From an uncultured Lachnospiraceae bacterium (lineage in GTDB: Bacteria > Bacillota > Clostridia > Lachnospirales > Lachnospiraceae): a stretch of 42,793 nt of DNA. Each line of letters starts with the position of its first letter. Within the stretch, counting starts at the first letter, position 1. The translations under genes and the position numbers were made by a program. Of the stretch, positions 22,705 through 39,491 are shown piece by piece. The stretch covers positions 1 to 42,793 of the forward strand of contig CACYMQ010000002.1 in NCBI GenBank assembly GCA_902775555.1. Reading direction: 5' to 3'. The notes below the pieces were generated by a model. It worked only from the letters and a program-made list of their open reading frames with translations, was not told where the DNA came from and searched no databases.

Positions 22705-23862
22705 TCAGTCTCCCGGACTGTGGCTCTTTTTCGACCGTTTAAACCGGATTACACTCACGCGATCCCATAGCATGCAGAGCGGGATACAGGTGATAAGAGA
22801 CAGGATGCAGGTGATGATCGATTTTCCTACGATCTCTCCCGTCAGGGAGATCCCCTTCAGCTCCGGATACCAATACGCACCGGGGCGAATATAATTATGA
22901 AGGATATCGCAGTAGACGACCGCTATGATACAGTGCGTGAGCAAAACCATCAGAGAATGTCTCCCCATCCATTGCAGGCCTTTGGAAAGAAGGGGTATCC
23001 CTTTTACGGCACGCGCCAGAAGATACATGGCCGGCACAAAGACCAGCACCTGAAGTACCACCGTATAGACATCCAACAATCCCCGGTTCCCATATTCACT
23101 CCGGTAATAACTCTCATTTCCGTTAAAAAGAAACAGACCGAAATGAAAAAGCAGTCCCAAAACAGTTACGGCAGCTGCCACCGGAACAGACAGCCTGTTC
23201 AGATACTCCTCTGCATTACGCTCTCTCAGCTTCAATCCGATCATCATGAACAGAAGATACGTGGGCAGTATCGTCAGCCCCCAGGGCGCCGGTTTCAGCA
23301 GAACATACATGGGATTCTGGATCAGAAAAAGAGCGATGACAAAGCAAACCCACACCCGTTCCTTCTTCCCGAAGATCAATCGCTTCAGAGGGTGGAAGAA
23401 AAGCTCTGTCCAGACCATACTCCACACAAACCATACGGGCGAAAGATTTGTGAAAAGGATCCCGCCTCCGCCCCAGGTTCCGTTGATCCTGGTGGTGACC
23501 TCCGGGCGGAGAAATGTGATGATCACGTCATGGATCACATCCCGGAAGGTGTACCCGTGAACTGCCATACAGTAGAGCCCTCCCAGCGTGAGCAGAACAA
23601 GCTCGATCACCAGTACCGGAAGGATCAGACCCACGATCCTCCTTTTATAACTGTCCAACACATCCGCATGGATCCGGCATGTATACCCGGATAACACAAA
23701 AAAGGTGCCGACAAACCCCCACCCCAGGGAACAGATCACCTTATCCGGGATGCCGTTCATGGACCGGAATACGATATGAAATACGGCGATCAGGATGATG
23801 CCGATCCCCCTCATGATATCCAGCTCCGGTATACGTTTTTTCTCTTTATGATTCTCTGCCAT
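22705..23862 (-). CDS. Acyltransferase-3 family membrane protein
   Basis: Integral membrane protein of 385 aa with about ten hydrophobic segments. The N-terminal signature ELDIMRGIGIILIAVFHIVF, with the conserved Arg and His, and FFVLSGYTCR are typical of the acyltransferase-3 (OafA/NodX-like) family, which O-acylates surface polysaccharides or other envelope molecules. The substrate is unknown. No strong ribosome binding site is visible before the ATG. The gene sits between two phosphatase genes in the same direction with gaps of 21 and 28 nt, so the three are probably one transcript. Confidence 0.85.
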   Translation of the reverse strand: MAENHKEKKRIPELDIMRGIGIILIAVFHIVFRSMNGIPDKVICSLGWGFVGTFFVLSGYTCRIHADVLDSYKRRIVGLILPVLVIELVLLTLGGLYCMAVHGYTFRDVIHDVIITFLRPEVTTRINGTWGGGGILFTNLSPVWFVWSMVWTELFFHPLKRLIFGKKERVWVCFVIALFLIQNPMYVLLKPAPWGLTILPTYLLFMMIGLKLRERNAEEYLNRLSVPVAAAVTVLGLLFHFGLFLFNGNESYYRSEYGNRGLLDVYTVVLQVLVFVPAMYLLARAVKGIPLLSKGLQWMGRHSLMVLLTHCIIAVVYCDILHNYIRPGAYWYPELKGISLTGEIVGKSIITCILSLITCIPLCMLWDRVSVIRFKRSKKSHSPGD

Positions 23863-25750: not shown

Positions 25751-25802
25751 ATGGGTCTCTTATCACGTGATCCTGCATGGGTCTCTTATCACGTGATCCT
25801 AC
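25751..25802. repeat. Two tandem 26-bp repeats, each with the palindrome ATCACGTGAT
   Basis: The units 25751-25776 and 25777-25802 share ATGGGTCTCTTATCACGTGA and the following TCCT, differing only at the end of the unit. The 10-base palindrome lies at 25762-25771 and 25788-25797. The repeats sit between the debris at 25.8-26.1 kb and the phosphatase start at 25720. They could be tandem operator sites upstream of the phosphatase operon or a simple recent duplication. Confidence 0.85.
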
Positions 25803-26108
25803 ATATCTCTCAGTTCATCCAGCGTTAGTTCGCCGATGGCAAGACGGATCAACGTCCAGGGTGACGGTTTCATAGGTTTTCATCGGGGTTCTGATCTCTT
25901 TATAATTCTCAAGCTCTCCCTGGATCAGGGAATACCTGCTTTGCATCTCGGTGAAGCCGTATCTCGAAAGGAGCCCTTTGTCTATCGTATCCTCCGTTCC
26001 GTAAAGCAGGATCGGCGCTTTAAGGTCGTCCGGAAGATCCGTAATGATTTCCGTAATCATACGCACTCTCTCCCATTCAAGACCGCGGCCCCGGAGCCGG
26101 TCAGCGAT
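25799..26108 (-). pseudogene. Chimeric remnant: N-truncated GNAT fragment joined to a YbjN-like tail
   Basis: Six bases after the TGA of the upstream GNAT gene a TAG begins an open frame (26108 down to 25815). It reads like the second half of a GNAT acetyltransferase: RLRGRGLEWERVRMITEI (the acetyl-CoA motif), APILLYGTED and LLSRYGFTEMQSRYSLIQG. No start codon precedes the RGRG motif. Near 25855 the homology switches frame to TLIRLAIGELTLDELRDM and a stop at 25799, matching the C-terminus of the intact YbjN-like protein (LIRLAIGELTLEEM). At DNA level about 30 of 37 bases agree there. The GNAT frame itself runs on into unrelated sequence. This is decayed sequence, not a working gene. Confidence 0.75.
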
Positions 26109-26116
26109 CTACCCTT

Positions 26117-27121
26117 TCATTCTCCGAACAGCCTGCTGATAAACGGCAGCTGCCTGTCCTCCTCATAGGGAAGAACGATCTTCGTGTTCTTATCGTATTT
26201 TTTGCCTGCAGCAAGGAGTGAACAGCGAAGCATCTCCGCCAGGCTGATCAGATTCTCCTTATCCGCCGAAAAAAACAGCTCCGCAATGATCTGATCCTTC
26301 CCCTCGTCGTAATGGAACAGCATAAGACCTGTCACCCGTCCGTCCGACATGGTATAGGACGAAACCTCCAGATCATAATGCTCGAGAGGCGTATCCAGAA
26401 GGCTTTTCAGATAACCTGTATGCCCATTGCTCTCACACAGCTCCAGTCCTTCACGAAATAAAGGCAGGGTCAGCTCCCCTATGCTTCCTGTTTGAAGCTC
26501 CTTCTTCTCCCGGAACACCTTTTTGAAAAAGCTGTGAAGATTCGGGAGCCGGGCGAATTCCCCTATCGACGTCACCTTTACGCTCCCCGGAGTAAGCATT
26601 GACACCTCTTCCCCGTCATATGCCGGAGCACCCTCCTCTTCGATAAGGAGCAGCTCTATCATATTCCCTTCGACATAAAGATCCGGTGCTCTCATCTCCG
26701 AAAGCGCCGGGTAGGCGGAAACCTCTGCCTTCATTCCTCCGTCATCCGTATCCAGAAAACCATGATTCCGAAGAAAGAGCCTGTCATTTTTGCATATCAG
26801 ATCATAACCGAAGGAATCCTCCGGAAAGACAGCGTGAAGCTCCCTGTACCCGGCCTCTTCGGCATACCGGAAAGCATAGGAAAGAAGGTTCTCCCCATAG
26901 CTTTTCCCGCGGTAAGAGGGATCGACAAAAAGCCAGAACAGGGTAAGCGCCTCATTTTCCGCCTGCCCGAGGAGGAGGCCTGCCGGAACCGCGCCCTCCT
27001 CCTCTTCATGTACAATGCCCAGCGAAAGATCCGGATTTCTGCTTCCGGCATCCAGAAGGCCGAATAGATCCATGTCTTTAAAATAAATCCGTTCCTTTTC
27101 ATTTAACTCAAATACTTTCAA
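26117..27121 (-). CDS. Two-domain GNAT acetyltransferase-like protein
   Basis: Protein of 334 aa. The first half shows a GNAT pattern: LTLFWLFVDPSYRGKSYGENLLSYAF (a degenerate R-x-x-x-x-G acetyl-CoA loop), then DRLFLRNHGFLDTD. The second half resembles a GNAT domain without the cofactor loop (YTMSDGRVTGLMLFHYDEG). Translation probably starts at TTG (27121) with GGGAGG 8 bases upstream; no ATG fits as well. It follows the giant kinase-domain gene by 48 nt. Its architecture and length match the copy at 37417-38334. The target (protein, metabolite or the neighbouring giants) is unknown. Confidence 0.7.
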   Translation of the reverse strand: MKVFELNEKERIYFKDMDLFGLLDAGSRNPDLSLGIVHEEEEGAVPAGLLLGQAENEALTLFWLFVDPSYRGKSYGENLLSYAFRYAEEAGYRELHAVFPEDSFGYDLICKNDRLFLRNHGFLDTDDGGMKAEVSAYPALSEMRAPDLYVEGNMIELLLIEEEGAPAYDGEEVSMLTPGSVKVTSIGEFARLPNLHSFFKKVFREKKELQTGSIGELTLPLFREGLELCESNGHTGYLKSLLDTPLEHYDLEVSSYTMSDGRVTGLMLFHYDEGKDQIIAELFFSADKENLISLAEMLRCSLLAAGKKYDKNTKIVLPYEEDRQLPFISRLFGE

Positions 27122-27169
27122 GGATACATCCTCCCACCCTTCTTTGGAAAGTCAGCCTTTGCCTTCTCC

Positions 27170-30100
27170 TTACTCTTTTGCGTCCAGCCTGCTTGCTTCC
27201 TTCTTCTGCTTCTCCAGATTCCGTCTCATGCCGATGGCTCTGTAGCCCATCCGGCTGAGAAGCTTCGTCACCTGCTCCTCCAGGACGTCTCCCATGACAT
27301 CCAGGAAATCGGTTTTCTCGCCCTCCGCAGCTGCCTTGATGATCTTTGATTTTTCCGTAACTCGTTGCAGCATCAGCTCATGGTAGGCTTTCCTAAGATT
27401 CTCTTTTATCGTCTGAAATGCCTGGGGATCCGTCTCGTTAAGCTTCTCCTCTGCCGCCTTCAGGAAGGGCTGATAGGCTTCCATGAACTGCTCCTTCCCC
27501 TCCGGATGCCTGATAAAGATCTGATCCACATATTTCTTCATCGTACTGATCCGATTCGGATTCGATAACCGGGCAAACATCAGGGCGTACTCCTTCGTAT
27601 TCTCCTGGAGCTCTACATGGAGCGGAGTATACGCCTGGGAGAAGGTTTCATTCGCCTCGTTAAACTGGGCCTTTTCACGCTCACTCGGTTTCCACTCGCC
27701 TTTATTCTTCCTGGTATTGGCCTCCCGGATCGCATCCAGCCGGTCGAAGGAATCCAGCGCATTCTTTACGGACGCGAATTTCCCTTTCAGTTCCTCGGTG
27801 ACCGCATCCATCCATACCCTGTCATCGCCCTCGGACAGGAGTCCTTCCTTGATCCGTGCCTTCATCCCTTCATCGATATACTTCTCACAGTCTTTGAAGC
27901 AGGTAGTCATCGCCGAATCATAGAGCTGGCCGGCATCAGCCTCCGGAGGAAGATTCTTTTTCGTGTCAAGCAACAGGCCAAGGGACTGCTCGATATCCTT
28001 CAGCTTCCCGTAATCCTTTCGTACGCTGGAGATAAAGTGTTCCTTTAATACATCAAAATGCTCCTCCGTGAAGGCCTTTATATCTTCACTCTTATTGAAC
28101 AGCTTGATCCTTTCCACCTGATATTTGTTGGAAAGATCCTTCAGATAGGAAGAAGTCTCCTCATCCCCGGTCATACTCCCTGCGAGATTCCCTCTTTCCT
28201 CCTCTGAATAATCGATCTGATTCGCATCCCCGGAGGTTTGTGTGCATTGCTTGATCGCATTTTCCGCATTCCCGATGGCTTCGTTCATGGACGCGATGGC
28301 ATTCTGAAGGCGCATCTGCCCCTGCGAGAAATTATATACCGAGGAGGGTACCTCCAGTCCCAGCTCCTGCGCTTTCAGCAGGGATGCCATGATCCTGGCT
28401 CCTGCGGAACGGAAATCCCCCAGGGAGAAGATCTTCTTGATCTCCGCGCCCAGCTCATCCCTCTTCTGCTGGTAAAGCTGTTCGAATTCCGGACGAAGGA
28501 GGGCGTGCAGGCCGGAGCGGAACAGCTCCATATCTCCCGTTGTGGCAGCCGCCATCATTCTGGTCACATGGTACTGCTGATCCTCCTTCAGCTTCGTGCA
28601 GTTACCGAAATCGATCACGGTCAGCTTCTCATCACTGACCATGATATTTCCCGCATGAGGATCTCCATGATAGAAGCCCTCCTTGAACAGTCCGTCCTCT
28701 GTCCATTTCTTGATAAATGTGTCAAGGTAGGATTTTTTCTGTTTCAGTTCTCCCAGGAGCTTCATCAGCTTTTCTTCCACGTAAGAGGGATCCATTTTAA
28801 TGAATTCCTCGGAATTCTCATCCAGCTTGCGATGATCCTGTATCTGCATAACATTGCTGTAATACAGCTTCTTCATTTTTATAAACTGATTATTCTGCCT
28901 GATCTGTTCTTCCGTCATGCCGGGCAGATTTGTCCTTCGGTAAACCTCATGCAGCGATTTGATCTCCGCGTTCACACGGTCCATCAGATTATCGATAGTC
29001 TCTCCCGGAGCCTTCTCCAGTACCATGGAGGTGGTGGTGGGTGCAACGAGCGAATTCAACTTCATGGAGGTGACACGCTTCTCCTCCTCTGTGGTCGCCT
29101 GGTCATAGATCTTGCCGAGCTCCACATTGCGTGCTTCCACGGTAAGATCCAGCTCCTCCTCGATCCGCTCCAGCTGTCCTTCGTAGGTTACCTGCATACC
29201 GCCCTTTTCATTCTCGCCGATCTCCGGCAGAAGCGGCTGGTTGTTTGCTCTTCTCTTCTCGTTCTCCTTATTCCTGGATTTGATATCCGATATTCTGGCG
29301 CACTGAAGCATCAGATTCTTCTCACGCATCATGCGGTTTGTAACATCCGGTTTCAGAAGCTTGATCGCCGTCTCCTCTACCTTCCCGTCCGCAAGTGTGA
29401 TCCTGCAGAGGAAGGTCTGACCTACGGATGCGGCACCCAGCGGCTTCACCATACGGATCTCCTTTATCTGGTTGTGGGACCGCTGCACCATGGAGAAGAG
29501 CTGTGCTTCCACGATCTCCTCGGGGATGGGAGCAAGCCTGCTCTTCATATCCGTCACCGCGGACTGCAGCTCCTCGGGAAGTCCCTCAGTCGGAAGCCCC
29601 TGCATCATTTTCTGGAACAGAGGGCCTGCGCCCTTCATCAGTCCGCCGATATAGTTGCCCATGCTTTCCGCCTTCACCTTGTCATTATAGGCCTCCCTGC
29701 TTTTCAGTTCATTCTCGTCGAGCCCCTCCGCGTCAACATCCTTCAGCTTGCGGACCGGCTTTGCATTCCGGATCATGGAGGCCAGCATGGACCGCTGATC
29801 CATGACATCCACGCCGCTGAAATAATTTTCAAATACCGTCTTGATGAAGAGACCCTGACCGGATTCGCCGGAGGTGATGGATTCCTTTACCAGCTTCCCA
29901 AGGCGTTCATTTCCCTGTTCAAGTCTCAGCTTCTTCCTTTTCTTTACCTCTTCCGGGGAAAGTCCGGGCTGATAGGGATCCGCCAGAGGTTCTTCCCTCT
30001 TATTCTCGGGTTTGAAAAGCTCACCGGTATACTGTGTAACCGTCTGCTGGAGCTTATCCGTTGTGTCCTTCACTCCCTGATCGATGGCCTTCTCCGCGGA

Positions 30101-32095
30101 GTCCAGCTGCATTATCTGATCCTGCGTAAGATTCAGGATGATATCCTTAAGACCGTCAATCTTAATATCCGATCCGGGGATCTCGATCCCTTTCAGGAGA
30201 CTGTCCGCCGAGAGAAGGTGTGCGGTAGCTGCGGCGGTCATACCAAGCTTCTTTGCATTATAGGCAATGGACTCAAATATCCCCTCGGGCGCGTCGCCGA
30301 GGACCTCCTGTATCTTCCCGTCCACCGCCTGTTTGATCGTCTGGGCGGTATCCTGAAGGCTCTTTATCACGACCTTCCGGAACTCCTCAGCCTCCTCGGG
30401 AGCCATGATGAAGAGCGGCATCTTATCCAGCATGCCATTGACCATCTTCATATTCAGCTCGCCCATGGAGAACATGTCCGAGATAAGGTATGCCAGCGCG
30501 TCCGCATTTTTTGCAAGCATGAGCTGCATCCGCTTTCCGGGTTCCCGCTTTTTTTCATCGGCCGTCCAGGTTTCATAGGAGAAGACCACATCCCCCAGAA
30601 GGTTGATCACCTTCTGCTCCTTTTCATCCCACGCAGGCTGCTTCTCCTCCGCTTCCTTTTCTTCCTCCTTCTTCTCTTCCGCTTTTGCTTCCGATTCCTT
30701 CTTCTCCTTCTGCTGCTGCTTTTCGATAACTACCTTTTCCTTAACTTCCTTCTGCTTTTCCTCCGTCTCCCGAAGAAGCTCCTTTACATCCATGATATTG
30801 ATCATGGATCTGCTCTCCTTTGAATAGACCACATCCTTATCCGAGAATTCCACTTCCCAGCCGTCCAATTCCTTCTGATCGAGGATGTAGACCTTCTTCC
30901 CGGCCAGGATGCTCCGGGCCATATGCGCCAGATCCAGCGTAAGGAAATTTGAAAGATCCGGAAGCTTATATCCGGTATTCTGCGTAAGGTAGTTGACGAA
31001 TACCTGCCGGCATTCATTTCCCAGTCCGGCATTCTCCGAGCGCTTCAGCGCGTCGCGGACCGCTCTTTGGGCTTCCTTCTTTCCGTACAGCTTCTCATTT
31101 TTCACGATGTCCTGCGCCAGCATATCCGAAAGGATCCCGGTATGGCGGTTTAGGGCCAGTTCCTTTCCTCCGGCGTTCAGGGTCAGCTGTCCGAAGGCAT
31201 TCTGATGAACGCTGAGTACGGTATCCCCGATCAGAAAGACCTTCGCCTGCACCTTTCCTTCCCTGAAGTCGTTCAGAGAGCTGCGGATATTCCCGAAGAA
31301 GGAGATCAGCTCCTTCCCGAACTTCCTGTCCTTTTCCTTCTTACTCTTCATCAGCCGGTTGATCATATCCGAGGGGATTTCCTCTCCGGAAAAAGCCTTG
31401 TACAGGAGAGAGGCTTCATAACCGCTTTTCTTCAGCACTTCTTCACCCGGGAGTTCCCTCTGGGGTTCCTCCCCCGCGGGCTGTCCTCCCTTGCTGACCA
31501 GATTGTAATACTTCGCCTGTACCATAAGATCCCGGGCGATCCGGGTCTCCGCATCCATTTTTCCCGCCCGGATCAGCTCCTTTGCCGCAAGGAAGGCTTC
31601 CGCCTCCTCATGGAGCCGGATCATATTCATTCTGACCAGCGTATAGCGATCCTCCCCCTTCCCATAGGACGGAGTCTTGTCCCCCATATAGTCCTTGCAG
31701 GCAAGGATCGCGTTCCGGTAAAGTCCAAGGATATCATCAATATCCTTTTCCGTAAAACGATCCTCTCTCCGGGACTTGTTGATCTCCTTCTCCACCTCCG
31801 TTACCGACATCTTGACCTTCTTCATCTGCTTGCTGTCACCGGTGGTCTTCTCACTGAGGACCAGCAGAGAGGAAAGATTCCTGCCTCTGACCATTTCCAG
31901 TCTGGCCCGCTCCTGATCCGTGAGTTCTCCCTTCAGCACCGTATCGATATCGCGGATATCCTCCTTGAGTGTCTTCTGGTTATAAAGGGTTCTGTCCTTT
32001 TGTTTCAGCTTACTTGCATGATAATCAGAGGTAACACGGATCTCCTTCGTCAGCTGATCATTCTTCTTCTGAATAAACTGTTCATCCTGCGGCAT
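27170..32095 (-). CDS. Giant protein (1641 aa) with an internal ABC1/UbiB-type atypical kinase domain
   Basis: Residues about 815-1180 form an ABC1/UbiB/ADCK-like kinase. They show K829-M-M-Q832 in place of the family KxGQ motif, an Ala-rich nucleotide loop GAASVGQ (887-893), Lys912 in TAIKLLKP, the conserved EELDLTVEARN with Glu987, the catalytic loop HGDPHAGNIMV (His1143, Asp1145) and metal-binding Asp1162 in VIDFGN. All key residues for ATP binding are present. Around it lie long helical regions of no known family and a Lys/Glu-rich linker (about 445-490). No membrane helix or signal peptide is seen. Usual family members are about 500-600 aa; this one is three times larger. Function is unknown. 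AGG and AAAGGA lie upstream of the ATG. Confidence 0.85.
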   Translation of the reverse strand: MPQDEQFIQKKNDQLTKEIRVTSDYHASKLKQKDRTLYNQKTLKEDIRDIDTVLKGELTDQERARLEMVRGRNLSSLLVLSEKTTGDSKQMKKVKMSVTEVEKEINKSRREDRFTEKDIDDILGLYRNAILACKDYMGDKTPSYGKGEDRYTLVRMNMIRLHEEAEAFLAAKELIRAGKMDAETRIARDLMVQAKYYNLVSKGGQPAGEEPQRELPGEEVLKKSGYEASLLYKAFSGEEIPSDMINRLMKSKKEKDRKFGKELISFFGNIRSSLNDFREGKVQAKVFLIGDTVLSVHQNAFGQLTLNAGGKELALNRHTGILSDMLAQDIVKNEKLYGKKEAQRAVRDALKRSENAGLGNECRQVFVNYLTQNTGYKLPDLSNFLTLDLAHMARSILAGKKVYILDQKELDGWEVEFSDKDVVYSKESRSMINIMDVKELLRETEEKQKEVKEKVVIEKQQQKEKKESEAKAEEKKEEEKEAEEKQPAWDEKEQKVINLLGDVVFSYETWTADEKKREPGKRMQLMLAKNADALAYLISDMFSMGELNMKMVNGMLDKMPLFIMAPEEAEEFRKVVIKSLQDTAQTIKQAVDGKIQEVLGDAPEGIFESIAYNAKKLGMTAAATAHLLSADSLLKGIEIPGSDIKIDGLKDIILNLTQDQIMQLDSAEKAIDQGVKDTTDKLQQTVTQYTGELFKPENKREEPLADPYQPGLSPEEVKKRKKLRLEQGNERLGKLVKESITSGESGQGLFIKTVFENYFSGVDVMDQRSMLASMIRNAKPVRKLKDVDAEGLDENELKSREAYNDKVKAESMGNYIGGLMKGAGPLFQKMMQGLPTEGLPEELQSAVTDMKSRLAPIPEEIVEAQLFSMVQRSHNQIKEIRMVKPLGAASVGQTFLCRITLADGKVEETAIKLLKPDVTNRMMREKNLMLQCARISDIKSRNKENEKRRANNQPLLPEIGENEKGGMQVTYEGQLERIEEELDLTVEARNVELGKIYDQATTEEEKRVTSMKLNSLVAPTTTSMVLEKAPGETIDNLMDRVNAEIKSLHEVYRRTNLPGMTEEQIRQNNQFIKMKKLYYSNVMQIQDHRKLDENSEEFIKMDPSYVEEKLMKLLGELKQKKSYLDTFIKKWTEDGLFKEGFYHGDPHAGNIMVSDEKLTVIDFGNCTKLKEDQQYHVTRMMAAATTGDMELFRSGLHALLRPEFEQLYQQKRDELGAEIKKIFSLGDFRSAGARIMASLLKAQELGLEVPSSVYNFSQGQMRLQNAIASMNEAIGNAENAIKQCTQTSGDANQIDYSEEERGNLAGSMTGDEETSSYLKDLSNKYQVERIKLFNKSEDIKAFTEEHFDVLKEHFISSVRKDYGKLKDIEQSLGLLLDTKKNLPPEADAGQLYDSAMTTCFKDCEKYIDEGMKARIKEGLLSEGDDRVWMDAVTEELKGKFASVKNALDSFDRLDAIREANTRKNKGEWKPSEREKAQFNEANETFSQAYTPLHVELQENTKEYALMFARLSNPNRISTMKKYVDQIFIRHPEGKEQFMEAYQPFLKAAEEKLNETDPQAFQTIKENLRKAYHELMLQRVTEKSKIIKAAAEGEKTDFLDVMGDVLEEQVTKLLSRMGYRAIGMRRNLEKQKKEASRLDAKE

Positions 32096-32159
32096 ACAAT
32101 TAACCTATTATCCTTTCTAATGACTGTACTGAGGGGTCTGTCACAGATCAAAACTAAAG

Positions 32160-32172
32160 TGCTGTTACAGCA
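32160..32172. repeat. Small perfect dyad between the YbjN-like gene and the kinase giant
   Basis: TGCTGT-T-ACAGCA is a perfect 13-base inverted repeat in the 119-base gap between the two genes. It is not followed by a convincing T-run, so it is a weak terminator at best and may be a protein-binding site. Confidence 0.3.
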
Positions 32173-32214
32173 TTCCCTGTATATCTGCCTTGAACATATA
32201 CCCATCTGCTGCGT

Positions 32215-32757
32215 CTAAGGGAGCAACGCTTCCATCTCTTCCAGCGTAAGCTCCCCTATGGCCAGGCGGATCAGCGGTTCCATATAGAGATCCGCCGCGT
32301 TGATCGCACTTGCTACACAGACATCCATCGCATCATAGAGTGTATCTCCCTTTAATTCCATCGACAGCGGAACCGTAAGGCGGTAGGCCAGAAACTGCTT
32401 CTCCTTATCGATGCTGTATGCTCCGCAGGGAAGCCGGAAGTTGATATGGGCCATCGCCTCGTACAGCTCCGGAAGATGCTCCTCCGAAAGCTGATCCATG
32501 ATAGTGATCGCTGCAGTAAAGCGCTGGATCTCATCCTCTTCGGAATGAATGGGGTCGAAGTAGAATTCTCCGAAGGAACCTTCTTCCGCCTCTCCACCGC
32601 CAAGCATATCCAGCACCACATTCAGGATCTCTGAGGCTCCTTCCTGATCAGGCACAGCGATCTCACTGGCGATCAATTCCTCCTGAAAGGAATCCCGCAT
32701 CCGTTCCAGCAGCTTATGTCTTTCCTTTAACACTTCTTCCATCTTTTCTTCGGTCAT
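32215..32757 (-). CDS. YbjN-like small protein between the two giants
   Basis: Soluble acidic protein of 180 aa. I place the start at the ATG at 32757 (MTEEKMEEVL) because GGGAGG lies 8 bases before it; the longer frame to 32787 runs into the end of the preceding gene. The middle and end (FRLPCGAYSIDKEKQFLAYR, TVPLSMEL and LYMEPLIRLAIGELTLEEM) resemble the YbjN fold in pattern, which is related to type III secretion chaperones. This is a resemblance by eye, not a proven match. Its position between two giant genes suggests a partner or chaperone role. A remnant of a second copy of its C-terminus lies at 25799-25855. Confidence 0.55.
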   Translation of the reverse strand: MTEEKMEEVLKERHKLLERMRDSFQEELIASEIAVPDQEGASEILNVVLDMLGGGEAEEGSFGEFYFDPIHSEEDEIQRFTAAITIMDQLSEEHLPELYEAMAHINFRLPCGAYSIDKEKQFLAYRLTVPLSMELKGDTLYDAMDVCVASAINAADLYMEPLIRLAIGELTLEEMEALLP

Positions 32758-32776
32758 GCTCTTATCCTCCCAGGTT

Positions 32777-35700
32777 TTACTTTGCATTCATCTTTCTGGC
32801 CAGCTGTTCCGGCGACGGCTTGTGCTTCTTCAGATCCACCGGCAGGCCGAAGCTCTTGGCCAGCTGGATATATCCTTTTATCTCCTCCGGATCCGTTGCC
32901 CGCACCGAAGCGGGACCATAGAGTCTCTGACAAACCTGATCCGCATAACGCTTCACTACATGATCGCAGGCGGAGAACATATCCGCGTACCCGAGAGATG
33001 CAGCAAGCATACGGCGCATCCTGAGCTGAAACTCATCCATGTTATAGATCTCCTGACCTCTTTTCTTCATGGCACGCTTTGCTTTTTCCAGATACTTTCC
33101 AAACTCGAAGTACTCATCAAATATCATGGTCCTGATCTTTGTCAGTGATGTGGCGCCCAGGGCCATCGCCGTGACCGTCGCTACCATAGATAAGGTCCCA
33201 ATGCCCGGGATGACAAGACCCACTGTACCGGCCACTGCTCCGATGGTTTCCACCGCCGCAACCTTTACCTTTCTCTCATTCATCTTCTTTGACAGCTTCA
33301 GCATATTCTTATCAAATTTTGCCCTTCGTTCCTCCAGCAGCCGCTTTTCTCTCTCTTCCGGCGTTTCCTTTGCTTCTCTTTGCTTTATCTCCTCCGTTGT
33401 TTCCCATTTCTTCCGGGCAAGCTTCTCATTCTTTTTGGCAAGCAGCTTTGCGGCATTTTTTGTGTTCATCAGATCCAGGCCGCCCGCGATCGTTCTGTAT
33501 GCACCGATTCCCGCGGTAACGGCACCCACTCCGATGGCCAGACCCTGCATTGGTTTGGAAAATTCGAGTACCCTGTTTTTGTCGAAGTCAACCGCCTGTT
33601 TTGCAAAATACTTCGCCGTTTCCATGCCCTTTCCTATATCGAGCGCCACCTTCGCTGTGGAATTCAGGAGGGAAGCCACATTCATTCCGATATCACCGGC
33701 GTGCATTCCGTCGATATTCTTCGCAAAATAGTATGCACTTGCAAAGGCACTGAGGGCATCCCCCGCAGCGATAAGCGCTGTGGCGACATTCCCTCCGCTG
33801 TAGAACTGATAATTTGCAAGTTCTCCATCCCTCAGTCTCCAGGTCGTCGGCTGATAGGGTACAAGTCCGGTCATGGAGATTCCCTTCTTCAGCATGTCGA
33901 AGCCCGCCACGCCGCCATTCACGGCATAATGGGAGAACTCAGATACTGAGCTGAGGGCCGTTCCGCCAAGGGAGATATGGGTCGGAACATCCTCTTTATT
34001 CGTATCCTTCTGATTGTACAGGGTTTCCGGACGCTTCTCACCTAACGGATCGATCTTACCGATCCTGGATGCCTCATCCACGGCATTATCCGCTTTGATC
34101 AGAGCCTTCAGCGCTGTATCCGCTTTCTTTCTCAGCCGGACCAGTTCCTCATCCGGTTCCTTCAGCCCCGCCTTCTGCTTTTTCTCCAGATCGTCCCTGT
34201 ATTCCTTTACCGCATCAACAAGCTCCTTCAGGCAGCCGGTTCTCGTTTCATCCGCCTTTTTCAGCGCTTCCTCCGGGCCAACGGCCGGAGCCTCCTCCTG
34301 CTTTCCTTCCTCATCAATGATCTCATTCCTGCTCTGTTCCTTTTGGTCAAGCAGGGCCGCGTCCCGGATCACAGCCTGATAGTCATCATTGATCTGCATG
34401 GCATCCGCCAGCTTGTGCATATACACATAATCTCCGAAAATGCGGGACATAACCTTCAGCTTCGACGCCAGCATCTGATCCTTGAATTTACTGAGATCCG
34501 GCGTGTAATTCATCTGTGCGTCAAATGCGGCGACCACATCCGGGGTCTTCCTTTTTCCTGTTTCGATCAGATAATAAATGAAGAGCCTTTCCCTCTTCGT
34601 CTTCTTCAGCAGCTTCGTTACGATCTCGCCATGATGATTCCGGATCTGCACCAGGCGCCCGGCCATACCGGCATTGTTATAATTACGAAGGAACCACCGG
34701 TCGATCTCCTCTATGGCACGAACCTTGTCCTCCTTCAGCCCCTGATCCGTCTCCTCCGGAGAAAGCTTCTTATCCTTCGCCTTGCGGTTATCCATCTCCT
34801 CGGCATGGGTACGGGTCATCTTCATCAGCGGATCCTCAAGATCCTGACCGGTCTTCTTCTCAAATTCCATGATCACCGTGTTCTGGAACCGGTAATAATT
34901 CGCGGCCTTTATGGCTTCCTCAATCTCCTTCGGCCAGTCCTTGATCCGGTAAGATGCCTTATAGACCTCGATGTCCTCTGCAAAGGTATCGAACAGGGCC
35001 GCTCTGTCCCGGATACTGGTGCGTTCACACCCTTCCCTAAGGGCAAAATGCTTCTTCCATTTCGCGTAATCGGCCGCCAGCTCCTCCATACGCTTCTTCG
35101 CCTTTGGGCCGTCGGAAGCCTTGATCTTCTTCTCTGTGTTCTTCTCAGTGATCGCCGGGATCGGCTTCCCGCCCATCAGCTTACTCATCCGGTTGTAGAA
35201 CTGTTCTGTCATCAGGCGGATCAGATCACAGCCTTTTCTCCTCTCGGCACCTCTCTCGGTATACTGATGTCCACGGTGCGTGTCGTAATAAGCATTTGCC
35301 GTCTCGGACAGTCGGTTCATGGCATCCATCAGCTCCGCAGCGCTTACCTGCTTCTTCGGATCATCAACAAGCCTTCCTCTGAGATCCGCCATCCCTTCCG
35401 CCAGATCCTTTACCTTCTCTGCAGCGGCCCGAAGCTGCCGGTAGGTAACGGATTCCTCATTGGGATTCTCTCCCAGTTTTCCGATTCTGCTCCAGATCTC
35501 ATCACTGCCCTTGCTGTTCGGGTCATGGATCTGGGAAGCAAGACCTAAGAAGAGTTGGCTCACATCCTTTTCAAACTGTTTTTGTTCTTTGTCTGCCTGT
35601 TCCTGCTTTTCGGCGGCTTTTTCCTTATTCAGTTCACTCACAACTGACTGAAATACATCATCCACCAGGCCCTCCGCCGCCTGTCTTACCGATTTCCCAT

Positions 35701-37321
35701 CCTTTTGTTCCTTCTGTTCCTTCTTTTCTTCCTTCTTTTCTTCCGCTTTCTGCTCAGCCGCCTTCGATTCCTCCGGCTGTTGGTCGTTCTTCCGTTTTGC
35801 TTTGGCCCCCTCTGTCAGCTCATCTTTGTTCAGACCGAACCAGCTTCCCACGACTTCACGGATTGCTTCATGCCGGGAGCTTTGCTTCTTCGTATCGATG
35901 AGGGTCTTTGCCAGGGCGTCATATTCCTCCAGGCTCCTCAACCGGATCAGGTTATTGTTGTCATCCGCGATATAAATCCCCTCATCGAGTTCGTTCAGTC
36001 CTGACGCCCGGAAGGCTTCCACCTTTCCGTCTTTTTCCGCAAAATATGTCTGCCGCGTATCCTTCCCCTGACTCTGATCCTTCTTTTCCAGGTTGACAGA
36101 GTGATCCCCCATGGTAAGGATGACTCGCTTTGCCCCCTTTACCACCTGGGGTTTGAACTCCTGACCACTGCCGGAATGAAGCGAATAAACAACCGTGGTA
36201 TCCGCATTCTCCCCCAGTGCCATATACCGGGGATCCTTCTTTGCCAGCTTCTCATCCACGGGATCATGATCGATCTCGGCCTTCTTTCCCGTAGCCCCTT
36301 CCATCCTGGATGTGGGATCATACTGAATGATCTGGAAATTCACTTTGTCCAGGAAACGGGGATAATTGTCCGCGATCCACCGCTTGATCCGCATGGCTCC
36401 CAGACTGACGGCAACTCCGCCGGCATCATAGCCCTGCAGCGTGATCGTCACCTTCTTAAAATCCTTTAATTCTTCATCTTCCTTCCAGTCCCAGTCGGAA
36501 AGCCTCTTCTTCAGAACGGACTGTCCCAGCTCCAGAATATACTTCTCCACATCCTCAATTCTGTACTTTCCCGAATCCGACGGTCCGATGAGATTAAATC
36601 TGTCTTTCCGGGTTCCTGCTTCTTTATTCTCTGACTCCTTGTGACGAAGATGGTTCAGGGTCTTTCCCTTCACCTTTTCCCCATACCTTGTTCCGTAAGC
36701 CTCCGTAAGCACTTCTTCTGTTGTTTTCCGGCCTGCCGCCTCCTTATTCTCACGAAGGATCCGGTTTTCTCTTTCGATCTTATCCTTTGTTTTACACAGT
36801 CCGGTCCAGGTCAGGAATTTGTTCTTGTTGAACCATCTGACCTTCTCCTCCTTCTTCCATGCCGATTTTTTTCCTGAGGACAGGATCCCCTGAACGCCCT
36901 TCTCTGACATCAATTGATGCTTATGGTCATTCAGCGCCACATTGAACTCGATCACATCCTGTCCCTCCGCCATCAGCTTTGCTCCGACGCTGTGGTGCAG
37001 GGCGACCTTCTCCGTGGAATCCGGATTTCCCGGTTTTTTTATCTTCAGCGCATCAATCTTTGCATACCGTTCACTGCCGAGATTCTGAATGATCGCACTC
37101 CGGACCAGCCTCTCCCGGGTGTTCTCCCTCTTCGTTTCCCGAAAAAGCCCTACGGATTTCATATACTCATCCATCCGCTGCTTCTGCACGAGATACTGAT
37201 CATTTGTCATCTCCTGCCGCATTTTCTGCTCCTGTCCGGCGTTGATGGGCTGAAACTCTTTTTTTTCTTTCTGTATTTGCATCGGCTGATCCGAATCGCC
37301 GTGGTTTTCATATTCGCGCAT
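32777..37321 (-). CDS. Giant protein (1514 aa) with a lipase-like segment and C-terminal hydrophobic stretches
   Basis: The part at about 285-420 reads like a class 3 lipase core: FKKVTITLQGYDAGGVAVSL, where the expected G-x-S-x-G elbow is G-Y-D299-A-G, then KVNFQIIQYDP, and later ILTMGDHSVNL with His407. A Lys/Glu-rich linker follows at about 505-545, then long helices. Hydrophobic stretches lie at about 1178-1205, 1255-1275 and 1355-1392, the last rich in Gly, Ala and Val (ETIGAVAGTVGLVIPGIG). There is no signal peptide. This mix of enzyme-like domain, coils and late hydrophobic segments resembles secreted effectors, but no family is recognised. AGGAGG precedes the ATG by 12 bases. Confidence 0.75.
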   Translation of the reverse strand: MREYENHGDSDQPMQIQKEKKEFQPINAGQEQKMRQEMTNDQYLVQKQRMDEYMKSVGLFRETKRENTRERLVRSAIIQNLGSERYAKIDALKIKKPGNPDSTEKVALHHSVGAKLMAEGQDVIEFNVALNDHKHQLMSEKGVQGILSSGKKSAWKKEEKVRWFNKNKFLTWTGLCKTKDKIERENRILRENKEAAGRKTTEEVLTEAYGTRYGEKVKGKTLNHLRHKESENKEAGTRKDRFNLIGPSDSGKYRIEDVEKYILELGQSVLKKRLSDWDWKEDEELKDFKKVTITLQGYDAGGVAVSLGAMRIKRWIADNYPRFLDKVNFQIIQYDPTSRMEGATGKKAEIDHDPVDEKLAKKDPRYMALGENADTTVVYSLHSGSGQEFKPQVVKGAKRVILTMGDHSVNLEKKDQSQGKDTRQTYFAEKDGKVEAFRASGLNELDEGIYIADDNNNLIRLRSLEEYDALAKTLIDTKKQSSRHEAIREVVGSWFGLNKDELTEGAKAKRKNDQQPEESKAAEQKAEEKKEEKKEQKEQKDGKSVRQAAEGLVDDVFQSVVSELNKEKAAEKQEQADKEQKQFEKDVSQLFLGLASQIHDPNSKGSDEIWSRIGKLGENPNEESVTYRQLRAAAEKVKDLAEGMADLRGRLVDDPKKQVSAAELMDAMNRLSETANAYYDTHRGHQYTERGAERRKGCDLIRLMTEQFYNRMSKLMGGKPIPAITEKNTEKKIKASDGPKAKKRMEELAADYAKWKKHFALREGCERTSIRDRAALFDTFAEDIEVYKASYRIKDWPKEIEEAIKAANYYRFQNTVIMEFEKKTGQDLEDPLMKMTRTHAEEMDNRKAKDKKLSPEETDQGLKEDKVRAIEEIDRWFLRNYNNAGMAGRLVQIRNHHGEIVTKLLKKTKRERLFIYYLIETGKRKTPDVVAAFDAQMNYTPDLSKFKDQMLASKLKVMSRIFGDYVYMHKLADAMQINDDYQAVIRDAALLDQKEQSRNEIIDEEGKQEEAPAVGPEEALKKADETRTGCLKELVDAVKEYRDDLEKKQKAGLKEPDEELVRLRKKADTALKALIKADNAVDEASRIGKIDPLGEKRPETLYNQKDTNKEDVPTHISLGGTALSSVSEFSHYAVNGGVAGFDMLKKGISMTGLVPYQPTTWRLRDGELANYQFYSGGNVATALIAAGDALSAFASAYYFAKNIDGMHAGDIGMNVASLLNSTAKVALDIGKGMETAKYFAKQAVDFDKNRVLEFSKPMQGLAIGVGAVTAGIGAYRTIAGGLDLMNTKNAAKLLAKKNEKLARKKWETTEEIKQREAKETPEEREKRLLEERRAKFDKNMLKLSKKMNERKVKVAAVETIGAVAGTVGLVIPGIGTLSMVATVTAMALGATSLTKIRTMIFDEYFEFGKYLEKAKRAMKKRGQEIYNMDEFQLRMRRMLAASLGYADMFSACDHVVKRYADQVCQRLYGPASVRATDPEEIKGYIQLAKSFGLPVDLKKHKPSPEQLARKMNAK

Positions 37322-37416
37322 ATGCCTGCTTATCCTCCTGTCGAGCCTTCGTTTCGAACTTCTTATCCTTATGGCATCCAGTCATCACCGGAACTGCGGG
37401 ATGCTGAACATACTCC

Positions 37417-38334
37417 TTATGCGTAAAATCCCCTGCGAACGAGAGGCAGCTCTCTGTCCGGGAAGAAGAAGCTGAAAAGGTCGATGCTTCTGTCACCTCC
37501 GAGGATCACATGGATCTCTGCATCCTCCGGTGCCATCACATAAAGCTTGATCGCACTGTAAAGCATCATATCTCTCAGTTCGACTGCCGCCTTCGGGGAA
37601 AGGCTCATCATCATCGCCAGCTGATAATCCCTCTCGGAAAAGCGTTCAAAAAGGATCAGGGAAGAGAGAACCCCGTTCTTCATCACTCCGCAGCTGACCT
37701 CGCCGTCATAGATCGCCGGATCATCCGATGCCATTCCGTAATAAGGAACTTTTGTCTGTGCCACAATCTTATGAAATGTCTCATGAAACATCTCCGGCGG
37801 GATCTCCTTCAGCGGCAGTACTCCGTTCTCCTTGCTTGGCCGGACGACGACGCCTTTCTTATCCTCCCGTTCCTTTAGATTCCGTGCATCCTTCTTCGTG
37901 ATCGTTACATTCAGATCCTCGATCACCTCAAATTCAAATCCCCAATCCGAAAGAAAGCTTTCCGCAAGGTCATATTCACGGCCAAAGGGGATATCACACA
38001 GAATCCCGTCCGCAGGATTGTCCTTCAGTACATCGGAGAAGGCTTCCATCAGTTCATTGGCGATCCCCCGCTCCCGATATACAGGATCCACATAGATCCA
38101 GCGGAGCAGGATCATGTCTGCCGGGATTTGTCCATAGCTGATCCCTTCCTCTGAAGAAAAGAGAAGGACGCCCGCTGCCACCTTACTGTCCGTTCCGTCA
38201 TCATCTGTTCCCACAGGATCTGCAAGGGCTCCCAGGCAGAACCAGTCTCCTGAGAGAACTGACCGATGCATCCTTTCCGGGATGAGCGGAAGATAGTTTT
38301 CCATTTCTTTATCATTCACCCAAATAATCATCAT
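37417..38334 (-). CDS. Two-domain GNAT acetyltransferase-like protein
   Basis: Protein of 305 aa starting at the ATG at 38334 (AAGGA at 6 bases). A longer frame to 38370 has no binding site. The first domain has LLRWIYVDPVYRERGIANELMEAF, with an R-x-x-x-G-A cofactor loop, then AESFLSDWGFEFEVIEDL, typical of GNAT enzymes. The second half repeats the fold more loosely (GEVSCGVMKNGVLSSLILFE) without a cofactor loop. It lies 95 nt before the 1514-aa giant and is likely cotranscribed with it. It resembles the copies at 26117-27121 and 38871-39491. The substrate is unknown. Confidence 0.7.
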   Translation of the reverse strand: MMIIWVNDKEMENYLPLIPERMHRSVLSGDWFCLGALADPVGTDDDGTDSKVAAGVLLFSSEEGISYGQIPADMILLRWIYVDPVYRERGIANELMEAFSDVLKDNPADGILCDIPFGREYDLAESFLSDWGFEFEVIEDLNVTITKKDARNLKEREDKKGVVVRPSKENGVLPLKEIPPEMFHETFHKIVAQTKVPYYGMASDDPAIYDGEVSCGVMKNGVLSSLILFERFSERDYQLAMMMSLSPKAAVELRDMMLYSAIKLYVMAPEDAEIHVILGGDRSIDLFSFFFPDRELPLVRRGFYA

Positions 38335-38382
38335 TTTCCGTCCTTTTTCTATCCTGCCCGCCTGCTTCATACGATTCTTAGC

Positions 38383-38585
38383 TCACGCCGAATCCATCCT
38401 CAGCTCCGCTATCAGCACTTCCTCTCCGCGTTTATCCGGGAACAGTTTTTTGCAGAGCGCTTTCATTCCGGCCAGTTCACCTACAGGCACTTCGATGCGG
38501 TAAAAAGACTGATATCCTGAATCTCCTCTGACTCCTGAAGCTCACTCACCAGTGACTGCAGCAAATCTCTTTTTTTCTCGTTCAT
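38383..38585 (-). pseudogene. Small gene interrupted by a one-base frameshift
   Basis: An ATG at 38585 with GAGGT upstream opens a frame (MNEKKRDLLQSLVSELQE) that stops after 34 codons at 38481. Adding one base to the A5 run at 38502-38506 (T5 on the coding strand) would continue it as ISLFYRIEVPVGELAGMKAL and on to FPDKRGEEVLIAELRMDSA, stopping at 38383, a protein of about 67 aa. The high quality of both halves and the homopolymer at the break argue for a recent mutation or a sequencing error. I recognise no family. Confidence 0.55.
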
Positions 38586-38638
38586 CGTGTACCTCTGTTC
38601 CCTTCTCTCCAGGTTATGTTTTAGTATACTTCATGTGC

Positions 38639-38902
38639 TCAATCTTCTTTATTCTTTTTATGCCTTACCACAAGAATTCCCAGAATCGCCATGAGCGAAC
38701 CGGCCATCAGCAGGATCCACAGCAGCAGGGGGCTGTCATCCCCTGTCTTCGGTGATCCCGTACCTTTACCACTTCCACTGCCCCTTTCGGTTTTATTCTC
38801 TGATGACTCTGTGGTCTGTTCCTGATTTTCTCCGGCGGTAACCGTGAATACCGTCATCGCATCTCCATCATCAAAATGTGCCTTCAGTATATGACTTCCG
38901 GG
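38639..38902 (-). pseudogene. 3' remnant of a second sortase-anchored surface protein gene
   Basis: The translation reads IPGSHILKAHFDDGDAMTVF, then a Ser/Gly/Glu spacer, SPKTGDDSPLLLWILLMAGS and a basic tail RHKKNKED. This matches residue by residue the end of the intact surface protein at 39495 (TPGSHLLKALFDDGESELVV, then SAQTGDDTPILLWILL). The N-terminal part is gone. At about 38903 the sequence joins the truncated GNAT gene in another frame. An ATG at 38857 could start a 72-aa piece, but without signal peptide or body it cannot be a working surface protein. Confidence 0.8.
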
Positions 38903-39491
38903 AATCCGAAAGAAGGATCCCTCCCGTCAGCTCCCCGTCCTGATCCATGCAGATGACGCTGTGCCTGAGCGAGATCCCCTCCAGGAATTCTCTTCCCATA
39001 TCAGGGTTCTCCATATATTCAGCCAGCTGCAGCATGGTATGGGGATCACTTAGAGTCCTGATCCCCGGGACCTCACTTCTTCTTTCCAGCAGCTCGTCCA
39101 TGAATGTCGAATACAGAATATCCTTTAACGGGATCCTGTATAAGGTGCGGTCTTCTCCCACAAGGAATCCATGATCCTGAAGGAAATCCTCCAGCCCGTC
39201 ATCCTCCGAGCTAAAGTCAACCTCGATCCCACTCGGATCCATATGCTCCAGCCGATGAAGGATCTCCTCCAACAGGAAGGTAGCCGCGCCCTGTCCCCGT
39301 CGTTCAGGGTCCGTATAGATCCAACGGATCCATACGTTCCCATCCCTGACATCCATAACACAGATACTGACCGGTTCATCCTCATCCGATAAAACACCCA
39401 GTTTGATACATCTGTCACTCAGTAACAGCTGAGCAGGACAAAGATGTGTAAAATAAATCTGATTTATTTCAGAGATTCCGGTGAGTCTCAT
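38871..39491 (-). pseudogene. Truncated GNAT acetyltransferase gene (intact first domain)
   Basis: The frame gives 206 aa against 305 and 334 for its relatives. The first domain is complete: VWIRWIYTDPERRGQGAATFLLEEI with a good R-x-x-G-x-A loop, then LEDFLQDHGFLVGEDRTLYRI. The second domain starts (SVICMDQDGELTGGILLSD) and is then cut at about 38911. The last ten residues come from reading the surface-protein remnant in the wrong frame. Start and binding site (AGAAAGGG, 7 bases) are intact, and it begins 3 nt after the surface protein stop, so a shortened, perhaps active protein may still be made. Confidence 0.65.

Follow-up and report, generated by a model that had tools for sequence, protein, structure and literature searches.

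Two giant proteins with YbjN-like and tandem-GNAT neighbors in a putative payload zone of a Lachnospiraceae contractile injection system

What do two giant proteins do when they are encoded in succession in an uncultured Lachnospiraceae bacterium of gut or rumen, each beside small genes of GNAT-like or YbjN-like type, and what do those small neighbors do for them? The window, meaning the whole 42,793-nucleotide stretch of DNA that was analyzed, carries this cassette on its minus strand: the GNAT-like protein P0001 (206 aa, 38871..39491), the tandem-GNAT protein P0002 (317 aa, 37417..38370, directly upstream of GIANT1), GIANT1 itself (P0003, 1514 aa, 32777..37321), the 190-aa protein P0004 (32215..32787), which resembles YbjN and type III secretion chaperones, GIANT2 (P0005, 1641 aa, 27170..32095) and, downstream of GIANT2, the GNAT protein P0006 (334 aa, TTG start, 26117..27121), which belongs to the family of P0002. 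Read from P0001 to P0006, the intergenic distances are 500 and 95 bases, an 11-base overlap of the GIANT1 and P0004 genes, 119 bases and 48 bases. Every gene named in an earlier, sequence-only reading was found in its place and on the minus strand; that reading had missed P0002. Its UbiB-type kinase in the 1641-aa protein was confirmed (PF03109 above cut-off, E 7e-19). Its GNAT label agrees with Pfam for two of the three GNAT genes, which exceed the PF00583 cut-off of 20.7 bits (P0001 at 30.8), while P0002 scores 19.2 and is recognized as a tandem GNAT by its predicted structure. Its YbjN label is upheld by the fold predicted for P0004 and not by PF10722, which matches below threshold (14.7 vs 22 bits).

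Behind the cassette, on the same strand, lie a SpoIIE-type phosphatase that is a probable regulator (609 aa, 23891..25720), a protein that we take, by eye, to be membrane acyltransferase-like (385 aa, 22705..23862), and a second SpoIIE-type phosphatase (589 aa, 20914..22683). The 609-aa gene recurs behind the cassette in three genomes (G016, G019 and G060) and beside GIANT2 in another (G010), and G016, G010 and G060 also have the 385-aa gene near the SpoIIE gene. Because its genes recur jointly in other genomes, the cassette is more than a chance arrangement. On the other side is the C-terminal part of a large surface-type protein, P0007 (39495..42791, minus strand), whose frame continues past the window to base 48716 of contig C2; a signal-peptide-like start, repeats and an anchor-like tail were recognized by eye. 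P0007 stands between the cassette and the AAA/ABC genes of an extracellular contractile injection system (eCIS).

The eCIS genes begin just past the right end of the window and run in the same direction as the cassette: sheath, tube, spike, two baseplate J proteins, a Pvc16-like terminator and a Pvc15-like AAA ATPase. Pfam identifies sheath, gp19 tube, two CIS_tube, DUF4280/PAAR and Pvc16_N proteins in this genome, with sheath and tube families PF04984, PF17482 and PF06841 all above cut-off and the Pvc16-type terminator matching PF14065 at 95 bits. The homologous locus L071 encodes a Phage_base_V spike, gp25, two Baseplate_J proteins, Tail_P2_I, STAS, HATPase, AAA and ABC proteins, its baseplate families all above cut-off and its AAA matching PF00004 at 98.6 bits; the whole set, except gp25, which is not among the genes called in the cassette's own genome, is matched there by BLAST or profile (J1, J2, TailI and spike included). 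The AAA ATPase gene is at C2:49471-51840, with the cassette (26117-39491) downstream on the same strand, and its product is 83-85% identical to those of six relatives in the genus. No capsid, portal or terminase was seen among 29 proteins scanned around eCIS loci. In described eCIS, payload genes occupy this position, downstream of the core (PMC11495950). We place at about 0.6 the probability that the cassette is the payload zone of this predicted eCIS. Likeness to known systems (PVC, Afp, MAC and lineage II eCIS) takes in the core gene set, downstream payload ORFs, the Pvc15-like AAA ATPase and Q-rich cargo N-termini. Unlike those of known systems, the payload candidates here are giant, mostly unknown to Pfam, and have tandem-GNAT and YbjN-like genes next to them; the locus also differs in the STAS, HATPase, SpoIIE and FtsE-like ABC genes that adjoin its core, and the eCIS-linked domain DUF4157 appears in the Pfam listing of no window protein and of none of the eight further cargoes scanned.

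Distribution was surveyed in 146 genomes, 15 eCIS-positive and 131 eCIS-negative, with Fisher tests whose p-values count related genomes as independent. Among the matches listed (per genome, the first 3 candidates for the giants, 7 for the AAA and 17 for the GNATs), close matches to the GIANT1 C-terminal half occur in 8 of 15 eCIS-positive vs none of 131 eCIS-negative genomes, close matches to GIANT2 in 7 of 15 vs 1 of 131, and a full-length tandem GNAT in 11 of 15 vs 6 of 131; the YbjN-like profile finds 9 of 15 vs 5 of 131. A close match to a giant means E < 1e-100, with a 152-aa fragment at a contig end in G024 added for GIANT2, and a full-length GNAT match covers about 260 or more of 282 positions at E < 1e-25. 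Absences are not proof, since the first candidates per genome were scored. The linkage of GIANT1, GIANT2 and the GNATs to eCIS weakens at looser cut-offs, again among the matches listed. At E<=1e-10, GIANT2 is matched in 7 of 15 eCIS-positive and 8 of 131 eCIS-negative genomes, seven of these eight in the kinase-like region only and one (G035) over its whole length; at E<=1e-8, GIANT1 is matched in 9 of 15 and 10 of 131, the latter ten solely within the N-terminal region; with no length requirement, GNATs are matched at E<=1e-10 in 45 of 146 genomes. We consider it likely that the giants belong to the eCIS.

Members of the cassette lie behind AAA/ABC genes, in varying order, in G016, G010, G019, G060, G024, G036 and G058 (split contigs), and in other genera a YbjN-like gene adjoins a sheath gene (G126), a GNAT gene adjoins the AAA gene (G066) and a GIANT1-like fragment adjoins the AAA gene (G076). 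An alignment of the AAA ATPase was used to collect further loci from public records: of 107 encoding a relative, the best 80 were taken and one was dropped (no AAA ORF above 900 bits), leaving 79, nearly all from Lachnospiraceae. In these 79 from the best 80 of 107, a GNAT gene is present in 42, a YbjN-like gene in 13 and either in 50. Nine of them belong to the 146 genomes too and contributed in part to training the profiles; the counts without these nine are 34, 11 and 42 of 70. Neither partner was found in the stretch covered for 29 of the 79, or for 13 of the 55 with at least 4 kb downstream. Across related eCIS loci the cargoes vary and the types of partner persist, and the five cassette genes are not always together. 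The co-occurrence that the sequence-only reading proposed to look for was found insofar as the genes recur together; a constant set and order was not.

GIANT1 has a Q-rich N-terminus and an alpha/beta-hydrolase-like region (about residues 200-500); its C-terminal half (about 600-1514) is conserved and contains a single TM-like stretch near residue 1362. The hydrolase-like region was called by motif and alignment, without a Pfam match, and its nucleophile serine is replaced (GYDAGG). No Pfam family scores above cut-off for GIANT1, the plasmid collection holds no match to it, and profiles of both giants against the PDB gave nothing useful. In GIANT2, the ABC1/UbiB-type kinase-like domain (about 740-1280) reaches 68.3 bits with PF03109 (cut-off 22.9), and the motifs HGD(P/L)HxGN and DFGN/DYGN appear in 9/9 aligned homologs, in keeping with the HGDxHxGN and DFG-like motifs of UbiB/ABC1/ADCK atypical kinases. 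Unlike those kinases, the domain is embedded in a 1641-aa protein and falls far below the cut-off of the UbiB equivalog TIGR01982 (76.5 vs 487.55 bits). The phage collection contained no match to GIANT2, and a search with it of genome contigs from public records found no relative; a paralog is present in the cassette's own genome, away from the eCIS (G000:C13).

Seven of eight other cargoes adjacent to GNAT or YbjN-like genes have no Pfam family, and the eighth has one sub-threshold match. In 39 cargoes, the first 60 residues contain 12.2% glutamine, against 4.8% in the rest (p 3.5e-7); the 39 comprise 11 YbjN-paired and the GNAT-only ORFs, three of 31 GNAT-only ORFs with signal-peptide-like starts (L189_8, L192_11 and L194_11) being left out. 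Separately, a common N-terminal pattern across unrelated cargoes was noted by eye only, and we make no claim for it. In each of the three YbjN-paired cargo families the hydrophobicity median is higher than in any of the 18 GNAT-only families (p 0.00075), a family-level value that we prefer because the single-ORF value (p 6.8e-6) is inflated by homology; single ORFs overlap, GNAT-only cargoes reaching up to 1.76 and YbjN-paired ones down to 1.28. This comparison omits L172_6 and L242_13 from 33 GNAT-only ORFs (GIANT1 homologs, cut off or without their downstream side), and L182_13, L186_15, L193_3, L199_14 and L208_6 from 16 YbjN-adjacent ORFs (taken as not the paired cargo).

The structure predicted for P0004 has the YbjN and type III secretion chaperone fold. 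A search of its own genome with the Pfam YbjN family found nothing, because P0004 falls below that model's cut-off; YbjN-like genes were sought with a family alignment instead. A second YbjN-like group is tied weakly to the first (cross-profile E about 4e-4 to 4e-3; hhalign probability 56%). What distinguishes P0004 from the YbjN/AmyR/DR1245 family is, besides its Pfam score, the overlap of its gene with that of a giant cargo behind an eCIS. Like class I type III chaperones (SicP, ExsC, CesT, VecA), it is encoded beside a putative effector, GIANT1, but its sequence identity to them is about 10%, and it is encoded next to an eCIS rather than a type III injectisome. YbjN proteins share the type III secretion chaperone fold. 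The AmyR structural study (Bartho et al. 2017, PMC5398634) reports that in none of 14 species did a ybjN gene adjoin type III secretion genes, and concludes that evidence for a type III chaperone role of YbjN is lacking. Our literature search found no paper joining contractile injection and YbjN. That the YbjN-like protein is a chaperone of GIANT1 seems to us rather likely. Effectors with a chaperone plus modifying enzymes had been one suggestion for this cassette; its setting in an eCIS payload zone and the secretion chaperone-like fold predicted for P0004 favor this suggestion, and we regard the sequence-only interpretation as partly supported.

The modifying enzymes are doubtful, because the acetyl-CoA motif is gone from 10 of 11 GNATs beside GIANT2 homologs and from 28 of 76 related GNATs. 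P0002 has a predicted tandem-GNAT structure whose nearest solved folds are acetyltransferases. P0001 is probably truncated at its C-terminus here, as its homologs L071_15 and L101_2, from two other genomes, have 279 aa each. Motif A, [QR]xxGx[GA], is kept in 48 of the 76, including P0001 and P0002 (RERGIA), so GNATs of this family may still be catalytic; P0006 is among those that lost it (degenerate, RGKSYG). The GNAT tree tracks the adjoining cargo family, with 11 changes (minimum 9; shuffled mean 24.3), and not the genome, with 24 (shuffled mean 25.9); one G019 gene is in it twice (L074_14 cut, L171_16 whole). In the 79 Pvc15-like loci from the best 80 of 107, 50 of 60 GNAT ORFs have a neighboring ORF of at least 450 aa, AAA included. 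Where a stretch has no eCIS core genes, a tandem GNAT stands, in 22 of 23 cases, beside a same-strand ORF of at least 450 aa (control 19 of 54; L269, whose GNAT is absent from the gene calls, L290 and L291 left out). One such large ORF is a chaperonin by sequence, and not every such ORF is a cargo. Loss of the motif and pairing with giant cargo genes set these proteins apart from tandem GNAT acetyltransferases such as that of the clavulanic acid pathway (2wpx).

GNAT-fold activators of the HlyC/RtxC type acylate or acetylate RTX toxins, and the GNATs could likewise be enzymatically active on their cognate giants, acylating or acetylating them as eCIS payloads that need such activation. The retained motifs, the acetyltransferase-like folds and the pairing with cargo families all fit this idea; with the motif losses against it, and no HlyC-family hit listed for the three GNATs (Pfam, E<=1), we think it unlikely. 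That the GNATs are mainly non-catalytic adaptors we rate at a little under even odds.

A regulatory or stress module acting inside the cell, in which the UbiB-type kinase, GNATs, SpoIIE phosphatases and STAS protein merely adjoin the eCIS or use it only for cell-fate control, would account for the orphan copies in G035, G050, G083 and C13 of the cassette's own genome, where no eCIS was detected alongside, and for the SpoIIE or STAS genes found with several orphan pairs. G050 and G043, both listed as 100% complete, have a YbjN-like gene and no detected eCIS, and G083 (60% complete) has two distant relatives of the GIANT1 C-terminal half beside a YbjN-like gene. These copies still allow an intracellular role, but within the genus close homologs show a strong association with eCIS, other genera also have partner genes behind the AAA gene, and payload genes have this position in described eCIS (PMC11495950); we find such a module quite improbable. 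An intracellular stress or defense system, the other suggestion made from sequence, drew no support from PADLOC, which matched no model among seven proteins and gave one weak hit (E 0.011), to P0007; an anti-phage defense system was dropped on that result. Immunity proteins usually vary from toxin to toxin, and although the partners adjoin cargoes and follow the cargo family in their inheritance, as antitoxins neutralizing the giants in the producer might be, the same two folds accompany many unrelated cargo families and the YbjN-like fold is, by prediction, chaperone-like, which makes this role very improbable.

Under the payload reading, GIANT1 and GIANT2 would be made with disordered N-termini and bound by their own partners before loading. 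The YbjN-like protein would bind the partly hydrophobic C-terminal half of GIANT1, and GNAT-fold proteins could serve either giant. Partner-bound giants might then pass to the Pvc15-like AAA ATPase, be loaded into the tube and be released on contraction, GIANT2 bringing UbiB-type kinase activity and GIANT1 a hydrolase-derived, serine-less N-terminal domain with a membrane-interacting C-terminal half. STAS, HATPase and SpoIIE proteins may time production by partner switching, and possible targets are protozoa, other bacteria, the host or the producing cell itself. More tentatively still, and with the odds somewhat against it, we propose a two-fold adaptor code for Lachnospiraceae eCIS: YbjN-fold proteins would chaperone cargoes that have hydrophobic stretches, and the other cargoes would be served by tandem GNATs, many of them catalytically dead, each adaptor being inherited with its cargo family.

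The YbjN-fold genes here occupy the position of class IA chaperone genes, beside giant putative payloads of another injection machine, and YbjN, a poorly understood family, would gain a place in protein delivery if these small neighbors are loading helpers. An adaptor code, if true, would give the YbjN fold its first role in secretion, would show a contractile machine drawing on the type III chaperone principle, and would mean that the acetyltransferase fold has been re-used as a loading adaptor. The gene pairs are concrete test cases for the question of how a long, partly hydrophobic protein is readied for an eCIS tube, and related eCIS loci are present in cultured rumen bacteria. In Butyrivibrio sp. 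Su6 (locus L183), a GNAT gene comes after the spike, gp25, J1, J2, Tail I, STAS, ABC and AAA genes; Pseudobutyrivibrio sp. MD2005 (L217) has an AAA gene, a GNAT gene and a 976-aa ORF in succession, with no baseplate gene in the stretch covered. An adjoining GNAT or YbjN-like gene may also mark eCIS cargoes that have gone unrecognized.

The gene set claimed by the sequence-only reading is present on the minus strand of the window, together with one further GNAT gene that the reading had missed. In transcription order the cassette encodes a GNAT (P0001, 38871-39491), the missed tandem GNAT (P0002, 37417-38370), a 1514-aa protein (GIANT1), a YbjN-like protein whose gene overlaps that of GIANT1 by 11 bases, a 1641-aa protein (GIANT2) and a third GNAT (P0006). 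Pfam backs the GNAT assignments and places a UbiB-type domain in GIANT2 (PF03109; 68.3 bits, cut-off 22.9); UbiB-type NCBIfam matches fall far under their cut-offs, the Pfam match of the YbjN-like protein is sub-threshold only, and GIANT1 has no Pfam family above cut-off. PADLOC returned nothing for the cassette. A 500-base gap (38371-38870) follows P0001, a short GNAT whose homologs are about 70 aa longer. Elsewhere in the window, 18062-20140 encodes a protein that, judged by its sequence, joins an IspH-type part to RpsA-like S1 domains.

The window covers bases 1-42793 of contig C2. Directly past its right end, on the same strand as the cassette, Pfam, BLAST and profile searches of this genome identify the gene cluster for an extracellular contractile injection system (eCIS). 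In the direction of transcription, a Pvc16-like protein (PF14065), a 246-aa protein and a DUF4280/PAAR-like protein are followed by sheath (PF04984, PF17482), tube (PF06841), proteins of 120, 445 and 1644 aa (the last with no match in Pfam), two CIS_tube proteins (PF19266), spike, two Baseplate_J proteins, Tail_P2_I, STAS, HATPase, an SH3-like protein and two ATPases, first AAA and then FtsE-like ABC, the SH3-like and FtsE-like proteins being named by eye. Spike, J, Tail_P2_I, STAS, HATPase, AAA and ABC were assigned here by BLAST or profile; these and gp25, which is absent from gene-caller output for this genome, were Pfam-scanned in a homologous locus, L071. After the ATPases comes a very large surface-type protein (39495 in the window to 48716 of contig C2), then the cassette, and behind it two SpoIIE phosphatase genes with an acyltransferase-like gene between them. 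The surface-type protein (39495-42791 within the window) is about 3070 aa long, starts with a signal-peptide-like segment, contains repeats and ends in an anchor-like tail; in two other loci (L192, L194) the AAA gene precedes an ORF of about 1540 aa whose start also resembles a signal peptide. The cassette occupies the payload position behind eCIS genes, which upholds in part the earlier proposal of effectors with a chaperone.

Each cassette protein was searched against 146 genomes, this one included, 15 of which are eCIS-positive by the AAA protein (14 of the 15 also by CIS_tube). Among the close matches listed (E below 1e-100), the C-terminal half of GIANT1 occurs in 8 of 15 eCIS-positive and 0 of 131 eCIS-negative genomes, and GIANT2, counting a fragment in G024, in 7 of 15 and 1 of 131. 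Profile matches to the YbjN-like protein were found in 9 of 15 versus 5 of 131, and full-length tandem GNATs in 11 of 15 versus 6 of 131. Fisher p values for these associations, with related genomes counted as independent, run from 1.3e-9 to 2e-7. At looser cut-offs GIANT2 (E<=1e-10) matches 7 of 15 versus 8 of 131, seven of those eight through the kinase-like region only; GIANT1 (E<=1e-8) matches 9 of 15 versus 10 of 131, all ten through the N-terminal region only; and GNAT matches of any length (E<=1e-10) reach 45 of the 146 genomes. Cassette members recur in seven genus relatives, behind AAA/ABC genes in six (G016, G010, G019, G060, G024, G036) and on split contigs in G058, in varying arrangement. 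The YbjN-like gene directly follows the GIANT1 C-terminal half in this genome and in G016, G019, G060, G024 and G058. Outside the genus, a YbjN-like gene, detected by profile only, adjoins a sheath gene (G126), and a tandem GNAT (G066) and a GIANT1-like fragment (G076) each adjoin the AAA gene.

Several copies argue against strict linkage. YbjN-like genes occur without a detected eCIS in G003, G043, G050, G056 (weakly) and G083; two of these genomes, G043 and G050, have a listed completeness of 100%. G083 also has distant relatives of the GIANT1 C-terminal half, and G035 has GIANT2. A GIANT2 paralog, about 55% identical and with its own GNAT, lies in this same genome (L033, contig C13, 58829-63850), adjoining STAS, HATPase and ABC genes, with no eCIS core at that place. 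The YbjN-like gene of G050 (L092), a genome listed as complete, has as its surroundings three SpoIIE genes, one acyltransferase-like gene and three ORFs (807, 1233 and 2262 aa); a different machine may be involved there. As side observations, further orphan pairs of a tandem GNAT and a large ORF were seen in this genome on contigs C30 (L268, 4838-8275), C71 (L269, 1999-3519) and C21 (L270, 9458-11740). At L083, L084, L096, L098 and L106, all from genomes where no eCIS was detected, a GIANT2-like UbiB-type region forms part of proteins of about 2130-2290 aa.

A profile search of public genome contigs with the AAA alignment yielded 107 loci, of which the best 80 were taken. Nearly all of these 80 are titled Lachnospiraceae, Butyrivibrio, Pseudobutyrivibrio, Eubacterium or Acetatifactor, the exceptions being two titled Clostridia/Clostridiales and one uncultured bacterium, and many name rumen or gut sites. 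In the 79 of the best 80 whose AAA ORF scores above 900 bits, 42 have at least one GNAT, 13 a YbjN-like ORF and 50 either; the values are 35, 12 and 42 for the 55 loci with at least 4 kb downstream of the AAA gene, and 34, 11 and 42 for the 70 left when nine loci shared with the 146 genomes are omitted. At least one baseplate gene is present in 49 of the 55 loci having at least 6 kb upstream. A common layout is AAA, GNAT, large ORF, and 50 of 60 GNAT ORFs adjoin an ORF of at least 450 aa, the AAA gene counted among these. The YbjN-like count takes in a second group, divergent and about 190-240 aa long; most of its members lie behind related cargoes of about 1120-1230 aa (2093 aa in L173).

Among tandem GNATs located genome-wide in stretches that hold no eCIS core genes, 22 of 23 adjoin a same-strand ORF of at least 450 aa, versus 19 of 54 other 220-400-aa ORFs of the same loci (p 5.6e-7); one such neighbor is a chaperonin by sequence, and because the contigs are short in several cases, an eCIS may lie near some of them. 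On a tree of 62 GNATs, labeled by the upstream neighbor where there were two large ones, cargo family (16 families) requires 18 changes (minimum 15, shuffled mean 46.2). Within a set of 38 GNATs from nine genomes, the count is 11 changes for cargo family (minimum 9, shuffled mean 24.3) against 24 for genome (shuffled mean 25.9). GNATs therefore stay with cargo family rather than genome.

Kinase-like motifs of GIANT2 are present in all nine aligned homologs. The GIANT1 N-terminal region aligns with seven free-standing proteins, all from genomes without a detected eCIS and all keeping a GxSxG-type motif (GHSRGA or GWSRGA); the four alignable cassette versions have GYDAGG, GHDTGG or GHGSGA instead and so lack the serine that usually serves as nucleophile (of the remaining rows, two lack the region and one aligned poorly). 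Free-standing relatives of about 925-1030 aa with the motif intact include those at L085, L097 and L107. At least one TM-like stretch is found in 10 of 12 homologs of the GIANT1 C-terminal half examined. Maximum hydrophobicity is higher in YbjN-paired than in GNAT-only cargoes (medians of three versus 18 families, p 0.00075), with overlap between single ORFs. Glutamine makes up 12.2% of the first 60 residues of 39 cargoes versus 4.8% of the rest; for 210 proteins with structural or regulatory roles in these loci, the values are 3.3% and 2.7%.

A payload module of giant cargoes and cognate adaptors is the best-supported reading. We infer that the adaptors would bind the giants, which would be loaded by the AAA ATPase and then released by contraction toward a target. 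In PVC, according to the available part of PMC11495950, payloads are encoded downstream of the core genes and are loaded by means of N-terminal signal peptides and Pvc15, a tandem AAA ATPase. DUF4157 is suggested as a chaperone of eCIS cargoes elsewhere (available part of PMC11297309); Pfam scans of the window proteins and eight further cargoes listed none. YbjN folds were already known to resemble secretion chaperones, and the available part of PMC5398634 reports no ybjN gene adjoining type III genes in 14 species. As excerpted, PMC8213781 finds eCIS depleted in human digestive sites, with mild enrichment in Bacteroides. Literature searches, in a collection with few subscription papers and no bioRxiv preprints, found nothing joining contractile injection with YbjN, with GNAT and effector, with Butyrivibrio, or with Firmicutes, gene cluster and acetyltransferase. 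The same searches returned, for Lachnospiraceae, the phrase in one reference list only; for eCIS and rumen, only matches whose titles point to unrelated subjects; and for SpoIIE, a single match that, as far as its available part goes, concerns a type VII toxin. The machine is of a known kind; the proposed payload module is of a new kind, and with it an orphan cassette becomes a testable eCIS cargo-adaptor system.
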